Source of the DNA: Pseudomonadota bacterium
GTDB taxonomy: Bacteria; Bdellovibrionota; UBA1018; CAIMNF01
Length of the DNA stretch: 64,000 nucleotides
Direction of reading: 5' to 3'
Assembly (NCBI GenBank): GCA_027486675.1
Contig: JAIXOQ010000004.1
Location: 1-64,000, forward strand
The position numbers were made by a program, and so were the translations under genes. Below the pieces are notes generated by a model. That model made no database searches and had not been told where the DNA came from. It saw only the letters and a list, made by a program, of their open reading frames with translations. Below are positions 47,204 to 52,566 of this stretch, one piece after another. Numbering within the stretch: the stretch's first letter is position 1; each line of letters opens with the position of its first letter.

Positions 47204-47959
47204 TTAAGGAAGCGTTAGAATCCGTGGGCCTTCGCTTGTGATGAGCACCGTATGTTCATACTGAGCGGACCATGTGCCATCGGACGTTTCGTAAAGTCCG
47301 ATCTCAGAATTTGGAATCTCTAACTCATCAATCGGAGCATTTGTCTCATTGACCATCGGCTCAACCGTGATCGTGCCCCCGACTTTCAGTTGTGCGCCTT
47401 TTCCTTTTTTTCCAAAGGACGGGACGAAAGGCTCCTCGTGGAAAATACGACCAATGCCGTGCCCACCAATTTCTTTGACTGCGTAGTAGCCCTTATTGCG
47501 GACAAATTTTTCGATAGCAAATCCGATGTCACCCACAGTTCCGTTTGGGGTAATGGCTTGAATTCCTTTGTGCATTGCTTCAAATGCAACATCGCAAAGA
47601 AGCTGCGCCTTGTCTGACACTTTTCCTACCTTAAACATCGAAGAAGTATCCCCGTGGAATCCATCTTTGATCACAGTGACATCGATGTTGATGATGTCGC
47701 CCTCCTGTAAGATCCGTTCATTCGGCACACCGTGACAAATCACTTCATTTACTGACGTACAAATCGCTTTGGGATATCCATGGTACCCGATGCATGCAGA
47801 TTTTCCGCCTAAGCTTAAAATGAAGTCGTTGGCGATCTGATCGAGTTCATTGGTCGTGATCCCGGCCTTCACAAACTTTCCTGTATGTGCGAGCGCTTGT
47901 GCGGCCATCTTGCAGGCTCGCTCCATGATCCGGATCTCTTCAGCTGTCTTGGTAGTCAT
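47204..47959 (-). CDS. map: Methionine aminopeptidase, type I
   Basis: The 251-residue protein has the metal ligands of the pita-bread fold: NEVICHGVPNERIL, INIDVTVIKDGFHGDTSSMF, GGHGIGRIFHEEPFVP, VEPMVNE and QYEHTVLIT. It removes the initiator methionine from new proteins. No N-terminal zinc extension is present. It is followed three bases upstream (minus strand) by the VOC gene. Confidence 0.97.
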   Translation of the reverse strand: MTTKTAEEIRIMERACKMAAQALAHTGKFVKAGITTNELDQIANDFILSLGGKSACIGYHGYPKAICTSVNEVICHGVPNERILQEGDIINIDVTVIKDGFHGDTSSMFKVGKVSDKAQLLCDVAFEAMHKGIQAITPNGTVGDIGFAIEKFVRNKGYYAVKEIGGHGIGRIFHEEPFVPSFGKKGKGAQLKVGGTITVEPMVNETNAPIDELEIPNSEIGLYETSDGTWSAQYEHTVLITSEGPRILTLP

Positions 47960-47962
47960 AAA

Positions 47963-48310
47963 TTATTTCTTCGACCAGACCGCAAGCTCATTTCCACTTG
48001 GGTCTAAAAACTGGAATCGTCTGCCACCCGGGAACTCAAAGATGTCTTCAGTGATCACTGCCCCAATACTTCGAACAGCCCTGAGGGATTCATCCAGATC
48101 GTCGGAATACAGTACAACAAGGACGGCACCTGTACCCCCTGAAAATTCCGGATTACAGAAGAACCCACCCACCTCGCCTTGATCCCCACGAATACCTACG
48201 TAAGTAGGACTATATTCATTGAAAGTCCACCCAAAGACCTTGCCGTAGAAGGACTTGGTTTGTTCCATGTGCTTCACTTTAAATTCGATATAGTTGATTT
48301 TGTGGTGCAT
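47963..48310 (-). CDS. VOC (glyoxalase/bleomycin-resistance) family protein
   Basis: The protein has 115 residues in two beta-alpha-beta-beta-beta halves: INYIEFKVKHMEQTKSFYGKVFGW and later ITEDIFEFPGGRRFQFLDPSGNELAVW. Family members bind a metal and act as lyases, dioxygenases or resistance proteins; no substrate can be named here. Its stop lies three bases before the map start, so the pair is cotranscribed. Confidence 0.87.
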   Translation of the reverse strand: MHHKINYIEFKVKHMEQTKSFYGKVFGWTFNEYSPTYVGIRGDQGEVGGFFCNPEFSGGTGAVLVVLYSDDLDESLRAVRSIGAVITEDIFEFPGGRRFQFLDPSGNELAVWSKK

Positions 48311-48312
48311 CT

Positions 48313-48798
48313 CTAATCCTTAAGCCAGCCCTTTAAGCTATCTGCGACTGCCTTGATTTCTTCATAGCTATGGACCTTGCCCTTCCCTACGCCTGGGCAA
48401 AACGAGGCAACCTCTTGACTCCAAGTTTTAGCATTGAGGACTTCAGGCCAGAAGGGCCAAGTTCTGCATTGCTCGGGACGGGCCTCGTAGACGCTGCAGC
48501 GCTTTTCTTTGAGGAAACGGCAGTCCCCCCCACCTTCATGACCGGACCGCTCCTTGAGCATGAAGTGGCCATTGTGTTTGCCGCAGTACTGCTTCGTAAA
48601 TTCAGTGAGTGTGAGTTCGAAATGAGCGGCCATACGTTTACGGTCTTTGAGCGTGAGGTAGACGTACCCATAACCACCTCGCGAGGTGCAGCACTTGCCA
48701 GAACCCTGGCACTCAAACTGAAGTCCGTCTTTATAGAATGGAATGGAAGATTTTTTTATAGGGACAGAATTTTTTGCCTGGGGCTTCTTCTGAGTCAT
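48313..48798 (-). CDS. YkgJ family cysteine-cluster protein
   Basis: The protein has 161 residues from ATG 48798; an upstream in-frame ATG at 48861 would overlap the preceding Cys-rich gene. Conserved cysteines are arranged as CQGSGKCCTSRGGYGYV, FTKQYCGKH, DCRFLKEKRCSVYEARPEQCRTWPFWPEV and FCPGVG, the signature of the YkgJ/CxxCxxCC group that may bind zinc or an iron-sulphur cluster. Function is not established. It lies 13 bases after a 37-residue Cys-rich gene. Confidence 0.86.
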   Translation of the reverse strand: MTQKKPQAKNSVPIKKSSIPFYKDGLQFECQGSGKCCTSRGGYGYVYLTLKDRKRMAAHFELTLTEFTKQYCGKHNGHFMLKERSGHEGGGDCRFLKEKRCSVYEARPEQCRTWPFWPEVLNAKTWSQEVASFCPGVGKGKVHSYEEIKAVADSLKGWLKD

Positions 48799-48811
48799 CA
48801 GTCTTAGGTCC

Positions 48812-48925
48812 TTATTCCCTCGGATAACAGTTATGACAGGAGGCGCATTGGTGGCAGACATAACGTTTACAGATGTTGCACTGAGAATCAGCTTTTTCGC
48901 GCTTACAGAAGAAACAAAAAGTCAT
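48812..48925 (-). CDS. Overlooked 37-residue Cys-rich protein
   Basis: The minus strand reads 37 codons and TAA. Eight cysteines fall in FCFFCKRE, QCNICKRYVCHQC and CASCHNCYP, giving four overlapping Cys-x2-Cys knuckles with two histidines, as in treble-clef or zinc-ribbon microproteins. An AGAGGG lies nine to ten bases before the ATG. The stop is 13 bases before the YkgJ start, so both are probably one operon of metal-binding proteins. This frame is too short for routine gene calls. Confidence 0.72.
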   Translation of the reverse strand: MTFCFFCKREKADSQCNICKRYVCHQCASCHNCYPRE

Positions 48926-49064
48926 GATCAAGGGCCCTCTGTCACTAGCGTCTCACCGCTTTGGATTCCAGCCCAGGGAAAGAACCACAGAGGCAGCAGA
49001 ACAGACTTCACTTGAATATCTCGATTGGATGAAGTGGCATCCTTTAGTGTAGACTCCTCGGGAC

Positions 49065-49511
49065 ATGTTTCCATCCGTAATCATGAGCCTCCTTATGACC
49101 ACAGCTACCTGCCTAGCGCAGGAAGGCGATGATATTCAGACAGAGTTTTGGACCGTCATAGCGGAAACCAAAGATCACCTCTCACAACTCGATCTCGAGC
49201 TGCCGTCTGAGGTGAAGTACTTTGAAGACGTAGCAGAACACGTTCGCAAGAAGGGGCGCAATTCTGGTAAGCAGTACTCTGCACACAAAACACGGGCGGA
49301 CGAACTCATCTCATGTCTGGATTCTTATCATGCAGAGCCCGGCACAGAAAAACTCTGGGAAGTTTTAAAACGCGTCTATGGGAATGCAACCCTATCTGAA
49401 ACAGAACGTCTCAGGATGTATCGAGCTGCGGATGAAGTATTTGAGTGCGCAAGGTCCTTGCTTCCGGCTTTGATCCGACTCAAAAATGGATTAGCTCAGT
49501 CCAATCTGTAG
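49065..49511 (+). CDS. Small secreted hypothetical protein
   Basis: The protein has 148 residues with a signal peptide (MFPSVIMSLLMTTATCLAQ). The mature part is helical and charged with two cysteines (LISCLDSYH, VFECARSLL) that may pair. No known domain. It converges with the acyltransferase gene at 49524. Confidence 0.65.
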   Translation: MFPSVIMSLLMTTATCLAQEGDDIQTEFWTVIAETKDHLSQLDLELPSEVKYFEDVAEHVRKKGRNSGKQYSAHKTRADELISCLDSYHAEPGTEKLWEVLKRVYGNATLSETERLRMYRAADEVFECARSLLPALIRLKNGLAQSNL

Positions 49512-50397: not shown

Positions 50398-52566
50398 ATG
50401 ATGATCCAGGGCGCTCGAATCTTCGTGACCGGCGGAAATGGATTCATCGGTTCAAGAGTAGTCGCGGAACTCATTTCAAGAGGCTACCGTGTTCGATGCC
50501 TGCTTCGGAAGCAGAGTGACTTCAGTCGCATAAGCCACCTGCCCTATGAACCTCATACGGGCGACATCTTAGATGTAGAAACTCTTATTTCTGGAATAAA
50601 GGATTGCGACGGGGTGATCCATTTAGCAGGGATATCGTCCTGGGAGGAGATCAGGAAAGCCCGGGCCCATCTCCACACCGTGATCGTTCAAGGAACCAAA
50701 AACGTGCTGGACGCTAGCATTCGTAACGGAAGACCTAGGCTTGTTTTTGTCTCTTCCAGTGCAACCATCAATGCGAGCGAAACTCCGAAATTATTCAATG
50801 AGAAGACCCGCTTTAGTCCAAAAAGGCCGCATCTTCACTATTCACAAGCCAAACGCGATGCTGAACGTCTGATCAGACGCTATCGGATCGACGGAATGGC
50901 GGATGCAATCATCGTTAACCCTTGCGAGGTGTATGGTCCAAAAGACATTGATGGAATAACCGCATCTAATCTGATGGGCTTCCTTCAATATCTGCCAGCC
51001 GTCGTGTGTCGGGGCGGAACGTCAGTTGCACACGTGGAGGACGTAGCCCGTGGGATTGTCATTGCTTTAGAAAAGGGTCGCCTGGGTGAACGGTACATCT
51101 TAGGCGGAGAAAATCTTACTCTAGAGCAAATCGCCCGTACCGTGCGGAAGGTTGCAGGGTTAAGTGATCGTGTCGTACGTGTCCCAAGCTCCTTGCTGAA
51201 GGCCGCATTGAGAGATGTCATCGAATATGCATCGCTCTATTGGTTTATGGATTCATCTAAAGCTATACAGGAACTGGGCTATCAATTTCGTTCATCTTCC
51301 GAAGTATTCGCTGAAGTCATTCCTGAACTCATGCAGAAGCAGAAACGCCCTTTCAACCTATCCTTGAGGTATGGTGGCGGTGGTTTTGATGCTCGGACTT
51401 TCCTGTTAAAGATCGCTGGACGCATCCAAAAACGAGACGTCGTGGTGCTGAACTCTGACCCCGTACTCTGCAGCAGAGTTCTCAGTGCTTCAAATAAAAA
51501 GGGAGACTTCATAGAGAGCCTCATTGCGACTCCCGCTTGGCACCCTATTTATTCTGTGGAATCCACCGACGGTGAAACATGGGAAAAACTTTCAGAAGGA
51601 TTCAGAAAAACGATGACCTCCTTAAACTGGAGGGAACGACTGCCACCAATCACCTTGCGGCATTGCGATGCCGTTGCCCTGACCATGAAAGATCAGCCAG
51701 AAAAGATCATCGATGCAGAACGGATCTCACGTCTGGTTCTGCATGTGCTGTACGAACTCGTCTTCGAAGAGCCGATTAGTATTAATGATGAGAATCTTTT
51801 TTACCGGGCATCGCTTGAATGGAGAAAAGAGATTGCTGTTAAGGGCACTGCCCAAAGCGGGGTTAAGGACGCATTCATGAGTCGTCTTAAACAAATTGCA
51901 AGCGTCTCCCGATTCAAAGACGATGCTGTAACCTATGGATCTGATCCCAATCTTTGGCTCTCGATCTTCGCCCAGCCTTTTCTGATCTCCCCCCAAATCA
52001 ATGTTTCAGACATCTTTTGCTCCGTCTTCCACTTCTTAAGAAAGGAACCTGAGCTGTACGCAAAGGTTCAAGGATGGGCAAGGAGTGGCGATAGAAGGCG
52101 TCTAGAAGGAGTGGTCCTCGAGGCGATTCGCTTAAAACACCCCTTTCCCATTCTTGAGCGTGAACTGACCGAAGACTTAAACACCTCCGAGACCGTTTAC
52201 AAGAAGGGAACGCAGTTCTTCATTCTTTTAGATCAGTTTCGGCAAGACCCCAACTTTGATCCCGACCGTTGGCTTCAGATGAGTTATGAAAATCCCTATT
52301 CATCTATTCCATTTGGAGTAGGGCCACGTATGTGTATCGGGAAGCCGATTGCGATGGAACTCCTCACGGAACTCTTAAGCCAGTTCTTGACGCGTTTCCA
52401 AGAGGAGGTCATACGACCAGAGATCGGACATCTTTACAGTGGAAGAGATAATGATCGAAATGGGTCAATGAGTGAAGGCATATACCAGCTCAAAGTGTTC
52501 TCCAAAGTTCTTTGGAAGAGCTTCGGTATTGGGAGAAAAAAAATGTCGCTTCGGGATGAGTCTTAA
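50398..52566 (+). CDS. Natural fusion: short-chain dehydrogenase + cytochrome P450
   Basis: The single frame of 722 residues joins two enzymes. Residues 1-320 are an extended SDR of the dihydroflavonol-reductase/epimerase type: nucleotide loop TGGNGFIGSR (G12-G18), and catalytic Y148 with K152 in HYSQAK. Residues about 340-710 are a P450-like domain: ExxR at E575-R578 (EAIRL) and the haem loop PFGVGPRMCIGKP with Cys646 as thiolate ligand. The expected I-helix Gly-x-x-Thr is not seen; the aligned region reads ISPQINVSDIFC, as in non-classical P450s such as peroxygenases. No reductase domain is fused. The frame is intact. Confidence 0.85.
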   Translation: MMIQGARIFVTGGNGFIGSRVVAELISRGYRVRCLLRKQSDFSRISHLPYEPHTGDILDVETLISGIKDCDGVIHLAGISSWEEIRKARAHLHTVIVQGTKNVLDASIRNGRPRLVFVSSSATINASETPKLFNEKTRFSPKRPHLHYSQAKRDAERLIRRYRIDGMADAIIVNPCEVYGPKDIDGITASNLMGFLQYLPAVVCRGGTSVAHVEDVARGIVIALEKGRLGERYILGGENLTLEQIARTVRKVAGLSDRVVRVPSSLLKAALRDVIEYASLYWFMDSSKAIQELGYQFRSSSEVFAEVIPELMQKQKRPFNLSLRYGGGGFDARTFLLKIAGRIQKRDVVVLNSDPVLCSRVLSASNKKGDFIESLIATPAWHPIYSVESTDGETWEKLSEGFRKTMTSLNWRERLPPITLRHCDAVALTMKDQPEKIIDAERISRLVLHVLYELVFEEPISINDENLFYRASLEWRKEIAVKGTAQSGVKDAFMSRLKQIASVSRFKDDAVTYGSDPNLWLSIFAQPFLISPQINVSDIFCSVFHFLRKEPELYAKVQGWARSGDRRRLEGVVLEAIRLKHPFPILERELTEDLNTSETVYKKGTQFFILLDQFRQDPNFDPDRWLQMSYENPYSSIPFGVGPRMCIGKPIAMELLTELLSQFLTRFQEEVIRPEIGHLYSGRDNDRNGSMSEGIYQLKVFSKVLWKSFGIGRKKMSLRDES

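Follow-up and report, generated by a model that had tools for sequence, protein, structure and literature searches.

The minus strand of the window, by which we mean the whole stretch of 64,000 nucleotides analysed here, carries a genuine gene for a 37-residue microprotein (MP) that is under strong selection across one bacterial order. The protein is probably a binuclear zinc finger, and genes of DEAD-box helicase and ArfB-like families, which were singled out after their adjacency had been seen, lie near its gene more often than expected by chance. From this neighbourhood we propose that MP is an accessory zinc microprotein associated with the ribosome or with rRNA, a reading that we hold at about even odds (probability roughly 0.5).

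Translation of window:48812-48925(-) gives MTFCFFCKREKADSQCNICKRYVCHQCASCHNCYPRE*, a protein of 37 residues with eight cysteines, exactly as the initial annotation had described it. The coordinates of the gene and its neighbours are collected in Table 1. The ribosome-binding site, called good in that annotation, is AGAGGG and was graded as fair. The MP stop codon ends at 48812 and the ATG of ykgJ is at 48798, so that the distance of 13 nt given earlier is right, and an open reading frame of 37 codons lies, as was also pointed out, below usual length cut-offs and can be missed. The probable ribosome-binding site of ykgJ shares nucleotides with the stop codon of MP, and the two genes therefore probably share one transcript in the window's genome; judged from gene spacing, this transcript probably comprises four genes and begins with MP. 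The YkgJ protein scored 42.2 bits against PF03692 (cut-off 23) and the methionine aminopeptidase 274 bits against TIGR00500 (cut-off 171). Divergent from MP, positions 49065-49511 (+) encode a protein of 148 residues whose start resembles, in our own reading, a signal peptide. This protein had no Pfam match over cut-off, and a phmmer search across 30 MP loci matched the window's own locus alone.

Table 1. Features of the MP locus in the window, with the basis of each assignment
Feature	Coordinates	Strand	Basis
MP gene, 37-aa binuclear zinc-finger-like microprotein	48812..48925	minus	translation, alignment, pN/pS
AGAGGG, probable MP ribosome-binding site, 9 nt before ATG	48935..48940 (48940-48935)	minus	sequence only
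AAGGA over MP stop codon, probable ykgJ ribosome-binding site, 10 nt before ykgJ ATG	48809..48813	minus	sequence only
YkgJ-family protein (PF03692), downstream neighbour of MP	48313..48798	minus	Pfam
Glyoxalase-superfamily protein (PF00903), next after ykgJ in putative operon	47963..48310	minus	Pfam
Type I methionine aminopeptidase, last of putative operon	47204..47959	minus	TIGR00500

Homologues of MP were found in 31 of the 58 genomes of the class, the window's own included, with one strong copy per genome. All of the carriers belong to the window's order (31 of 55 genomes), none of the three class genomes outside the order has MP, and no strong match was found beyond the order among 368 genomes of the phylum. 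A phylum-wide distribution was rejected, as just six genomes outside the order gave matches, all of them weak (E 9e-4 to 1e-2), and four of these fall by position on the finger of the larger protein A3 described below. A scan of named genome contigs located 26 MP loci, every one in a record titled MAG. The titles name Bdellovibrionales, Oligoflexia, Bacteriovoracaceae or just Proteobacteria, with one Lysobacteraceae (JAGTJX010000003.1) that is probably a wrong taxon label.

When 29 of the 31 MP sequences were compared, every one of the 406 pairs had a pN lower than its pS (median ratio 0.20), which shows purifying selection. The closest relative of the window's MP, in a genome of another family (G039), has 92% amino-acid identity, with pS 1.22 and pN 0.04. 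Recent horizontal transfer, which such identity might indicate, was rejected: synonymous sites are saturated, and the identity therefore reflects constraint. An old transfer may have taken place. DNA similarity to the four relatives compared lay within the MP reading frame, besides short low-scoring pieces. A mobile or phage origin was likewise rejected, with no phage or plasmid match by tblastn (E<=0.01), and of 24 stretches on viral contigs that carry the MP cysteine pattern none was confirmed as MP. The initial annotation had staked the gene on conservation of its frame in close relatives and of its cysteine codons; 31 of 58 class genomes carry the frame, and no residues of the protein vary less than the ligands. 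At one locus (L038, in G034) the MP frame lacks a stop codon and continues into a secreted-peptidase-like reading frame of 703 residues, which points to a fusion or else to an error in the sequence.

In an alignment of 26 MP sequences, residues C4, C7, C16, C19, R21, C24, C27, H31, C33, Y34 and R36 are invariant, and the non-ligand residues F6, K8, K20, V23 and N32 nearly so. K8 is replaced by Gln in two genomes (G021 and G023), and a basic residue there is therefore not universal. Position 30 is Cys in only 7 of the 26 sequences, and His31 is constant in all 26, so the conserved ligand set consists of seven Cys and one His. These eight likely ligands (C4, C7, C16, C19, C24, C27, H31 and C33) are present in 31 of 31 MP sequences and define the motif C-x2-C-x8-C-x2-C-x4-C-x2-C-x(3,5)-H-x-C, with the ligand order CCCCCCHC; the CxxC motifs of the window's MP read CFFC-K, CNIC-K and CHQC-A. 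The earlier picture of an eight-cysteine metal-binding microprotein thus survives as a conserved, probably metal-binding protein, but with His31 in place of the variable Cys30. Two metal sites are probable, with zinc as the likely metal.

An AlphaFold2 model of MP had a mean pLDDT of 88.3. Foldseek searches with this model returned 35 rows (best E 0.86), mostly zinc-finger chains and many of them RING, B-box or HIT. When the 35 chains were realigned, the top match was the CONSTANS B-box (7vsq_A; Z 4.0, rmsd 1.7, 32 aligned), tied with the Hit1 zinc finger (Z 3.9, rmsd 2.1, 37 aligned); the Bcd1 zinc finger followed at Z 3.4. These Z-scores are low, as expected at 37 residues, and B-box and zf-HIT chains are tied. 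By this modelling MP looks like, and probably is, a binuclear finger of the cross-brace type, similar to those of B-box and zf-HIT proteins. AlphaFold2 models are described as not telling metal binding, and of 14 predicted zinc fingers that were tested, 5 are reported to be zinc-free (PMC11241148).

B-boxes are described as binuclear RING-like treble clefs with the ligands CC/HCCCCHH (PMC4506424). MP is like them in its predicted binuclear cross-brace and in weak Pfam matches, but its CCCCCCHC order departs from the pattern given in that source, and a B-box is a domain whereas MP is a whole 37-residue bacterial protein. Weak matches were obtained with zf-B_box_Trim66 (PF25287) in 24 of 26 MP members (best E 1.2e-4), with zf-B_box (PF00643) in 22 of 26 (best E 1.4e-4) and with PF22586 in 19 of 26. 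The gathering cut-off was not reached in any row for which scores were displayed: the window's MP (P0001) scored 11.4 bits against PF00643 (cut-off 24.1), and the best score displayed against PF25287 was 21.6 (cut-off 27).

The zf-HIT finger has the ligand order CCCCCCHC, as in MP, and its last spacings differ from those of MP. The modelled structural match to the fingers of this kind in the yeast proteins Hit1 and Bcd1 spans the whole MP peptide, and the zf-HIT Pfam model was unmatched at E<=1 (26 members) and at E<=10 (six peptides), in searches where the HMMER filters drop most weak matches. Fingers of this family are eukaryotic and lie within larger proteins, whereas MP is bacterial and free-standing. 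The model suggests a resemblance, from which homology does not follow. MP is accordingly assigned to neither the B-box nor the zf-HIT family, yet it looks, and probably works, like such a finger. Hit1 and Bcd1 are described as box C/D snoRNP assembly factors in yeast (PMC7994586, PMC9418376).

Stand-alone zinc finger proteins shorter than 70 residues are reported from haloarchaea, where 12 of 16 gave deletion phenotypes and a contribution to fitness is seen in certain conditions (PMC6562870). These proteins are short and stand-alone like MP, but archaeal, and haloarchaeal proteins predicted to be zinc fingers are described as carrying C(P)XCG motifs (PMC11241148), of which MP has none. NCBIfam held no family for P0001 and gave three chance-level matches among the 26 members, a sequence search of the PDB with MP reached a best E of 0.33, and no match of MP to a ribosomal or RNA-binding family stood above cut-off. 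A literature search, judged from titles and the openings of abstracts, found no description of the family.

The genes around MP are hardly ever alike between genomes, the exceptions being near pairs such as G028/G040 and G002/G010. A theme of RNA and translation is seen among its same-strand neighbours (20 of 28 scanned). A DEAD-box helicase gene lies directly downstream of MP in genomes of three families, with gaps of 6 nt (G016) and 13 nt (G025) or an ATGA overlap (G023). In G027 the downstream gene, 15 nt away, encodes ArfB (132.5 bits against the curated NCBIfam model, cut-off 100), and in three genomes of one genus (G028, G040 and G053) it encodes an FtsJ/RlmM-like methyltransferase whose score falls short of the RlmM cut-off. 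In G024 MP is followed after 72 nt by an ABC-F ATPase gene, which does not reach the cut-off of the model that it matches best. Divergent arrangements were found in G038, where an ArfB-like gene lies beside MP, and in G051, where a piece of an ABC-F gene at the contig edge lies upstream of MP with a putative 92-residue reading frame between. Such translation or ribosome genes adjoin MP in 10 of 31 genomes from 8 genera, or in 9 from 7 if G051 is left out. The window's own genome has none of the DEAD-box, ArfB, ABC-F or FtsJ genes by MP, and the sole translation gene nearby is that for methionine aminopeptidase.

To assess enrichment, counts were compared with those expected if genes were placed at random, allowing for the contig window. 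Of the 31 genomes, 6 have a DEAD-box helicase gene no more than 3 kb from MP (0.24 expected; p 2e-7), and 8 have one no more than 10 kb away (nine genes). For ArfB-like genes the number of genomes was 4 at 3 kb (0.043 expected; p 1.4e-7) and 5 at 10 kb, and for all genes with an RF-1 domain taken together it was 7 at 10 kb (0.41 expected). FtsJ genes within 3 kb occurred in 3 of 31, all of one genus (expected 0.21, p 1.4e-3). ABC-F genes were not enriched at 3 kb (1 found, expected 0.21, p 0.19) and occurred within 10 kb in 4 of 31 (expected 0.59, p 3e-3). The four families were selected post hoc, after adjacency was seen, and these p-values are therefore optimistic; nor are the genomes independent, as G028, G040 and G053 are of one genus and G002 and G010 have a common gene order. 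The neighbour families are also linked to one another: with 77 of 116 ABC-F matches used, ABC-F was linked with DEAD-box genes 8 times (expected at most 0.63) and with ArfB-like genes 4 times (expected at most 0.12). Because ABC-F, ArfB-like and DEAD-box genes are mutually linked, MP seems to be part of a loose, reshuffled ribosome-maintenance neighbourhood.

The controls yielded few hits or none. Near MP itself there was no NUDIX gene at 3 kb (0.20 expected) and a single one at 10 kb (0.55 expected). When 116 NUDIX genes were themselves used as anchors, no DEAD-box (expected at most 0.93) or ABC-F gene (at most 0.54) and one ArfB-like gene (at most 0.18) lay within 3 kb. Around 20 YkgJ anchors in MP-bearing genomes no DEAD-box or RF-1-domain gene was found within 3 kb, and 20 YkgJ anchors at 10 kb gave one ArfB-like (expected 0.09) and two DEAD-box genes (expected 0.54). 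These controls bear on the possibility of a general role outside translation, in which MP would be a protein-protein adaptor or regulator and the neighbourhood signal a side effect of gene order in housekeeping regions. Such a role would suit the 21 of 31 genomes in which none of these translation genes is directly adjacent to MP, and the variety of its other same-strand neighbours, among them genes for a thioesterase, a fatty acid desaturase, YceG, PLD and cytochrome c. The NUDIX and YkgJ anchors, however, show no enrichment at 3 kb; we consider an adaptor outside translation rather unlikely.

A related finger protein of about 165 residues, A3 (for example L123, L125 and L131), is present in 146 of the 368 phylum genomes. 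Its N-terminal, cross-brace-like finger has the core C-x2-C-x8-C-x2-C-x4-C-x2-C, as in MP, and aligned with MP by hhalign at a probability of 95.8% (E 8e-9). Unlike MP, A3 carries an additional domain, and the last loop of its finger is longer and ends in H-x3-C-x2-C; A3 occurs in those 146 genomes of the phylum, whereas MP is restricted to one order within the 368-genome set. Three A3 proteins were scanned against Pfam; the best match of the finger was ADD_DNMT3 (1.8e-4, in one of the three), and the C-terminal part matched nothing. Over the 58 class genomes, 28 have both proteins, 3 MP only, 7 A3 only and 20 neither (Fisher 5e-7). A hand tally by genus gave 17/1/3/16 (p 1.3e-6), the genus being the one level at which kinship was addressed, and the split within genus g2 was 7/2/2/1. 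DEAD-box helicase genes lie beside A3 at 3 of 30 A3 loci (G006, G033 and G039). With A3 as the anchor, in a third control, 2 of 28 genomes had DEAD-box genes within 3 kb (three genes, expected 0.24) and 1 of 28 an ArfB-like gene, so that A3 may share the translation-gene neighbourhood of MP. In one genome (G005:C7:207035-209288), genes for an FtsJ/RlmM-like protein, an ArfB-like protein and A3 stand in a row on one strand within 2.3 kb, a compact form of the ribosome-maintenance neighbourhood. The neighbours of A3 are thus a second hint of an RNA context.

The shared finger and the co-occurrence would also fit a microProtein in the plant sense, that is, one that binds and regulates A3 through the finger they have in common, in the way reported for the plant B-box microProteins miP1a/b and their larger relatives (PMC4807768). 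MP is found without an A3 match in three genomes, however: the window's own (95.3% complete), G001 and G009. The split within g2 indicates that much of the association lies between clades, where it may follow genome size, and cysteine-rich profiles inflate profile scores such as that of MP against A3. Regulation of A3 by MP is for these reasons improbable. Eight cysteines among 37 residues might equally suggest a small metallothionein-like store or buffer of zinc, which is very unlikely given the invariance of R21, Y34 and R36 and near-invariance of F6, K8, K20, V23 and N32, none of them ligands, the confident prediction of a single fold, and a ligand spacing that is that of a finger.

The initial annotation had paired MP with YkgJ in metal delivery or sensing, the two genes being adjacent, co-directional and 13 nt apart and both products Cys-rich, and had supposed that such pairs may be widely overlooked. 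YkgJ relatives (E<=1e-5) are present in 30 of the 58 class genomes, 29 of them strong matches and one weak. The scan upstream of YkgJ genes for the cysteine pattern that had been suggested as a check was run on these 30 loci, with flanks of about 1.5 kb, and an MP-like pattern was found at 1 of 30; in the reverse search, YkgJ was nearby at 1 of the 30 MP loci scanned (G023 left out). The sole case in both searches was the window's own. A conserved MP-YkgJ gene pair was accordingly rejected, no further pairs appeared in the set examined, and, as the pairing is not conserved, metal delivery via YkgJ is unsupported; a joint role in metal delivery or sensing is largely refuted and hardly credible. 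We judge YkgJ to lie outside the function of MP: the adjacency looks accidental, and the linkage would be a local accident of gene order in the window's genome. Microprotein adjacency seen in one genome can mislead.

For the proposed ribosome- or rRNA-associated role, the following scheme may be envisaged. From the cross-brace order, the two ligand sets would most likely be C4/C7/C24/C27 and C16/C19/H31/C33. The basic and aromatic residues F6, K8, K20, R21, Y34 and R36 could then form a binding face, which would most likely contact rRNA or a ribosome-bound protein. MP would share a process with DEAD-box RNA helicases, ABC-F ATPases, the ArfB rescue hydrolase and the FtsJ/RlmM-like methyltransferase, and this process may be ribosome assembly, repair or rescue. 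A more specific version is put forward tentatively and is somewhat doubtful: in it, a hitherto unannotated family of free-standing B-box/HIT-like cross-brace fingers of ~37 residues would serve as a dedicated co-factor in ribosome rescue or assembly (with ArfB, ABC-F, DEAD-box helicase and RlmM-like methyltransferase) in one order of Bdellovibrio-like bacteria, and would be a bacterial counterpart of the eukaryotic RNP-assembling zf-HIT fingers. If the neighbourhood signal holds, a stand-alone zinc finger would be added to bacterial ribosome rescue or assembly, with ArfB, the ABC-F ATPase, DEAD-box helicases, the RlmM-like methyltransferase and A3 as candidate partners. A tiny gene is thus preserved by strong selection throughout an order known here from MAGs.

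Elsewhere in the window, positions 50398-52566 (+) hold one reading frame of 722 residues, which we take, recognising the motif FGVGPRMCIGKP, to combine an NAD-dependent epimerase-like N-terminus with a cytochrome P450-like C-terminus.
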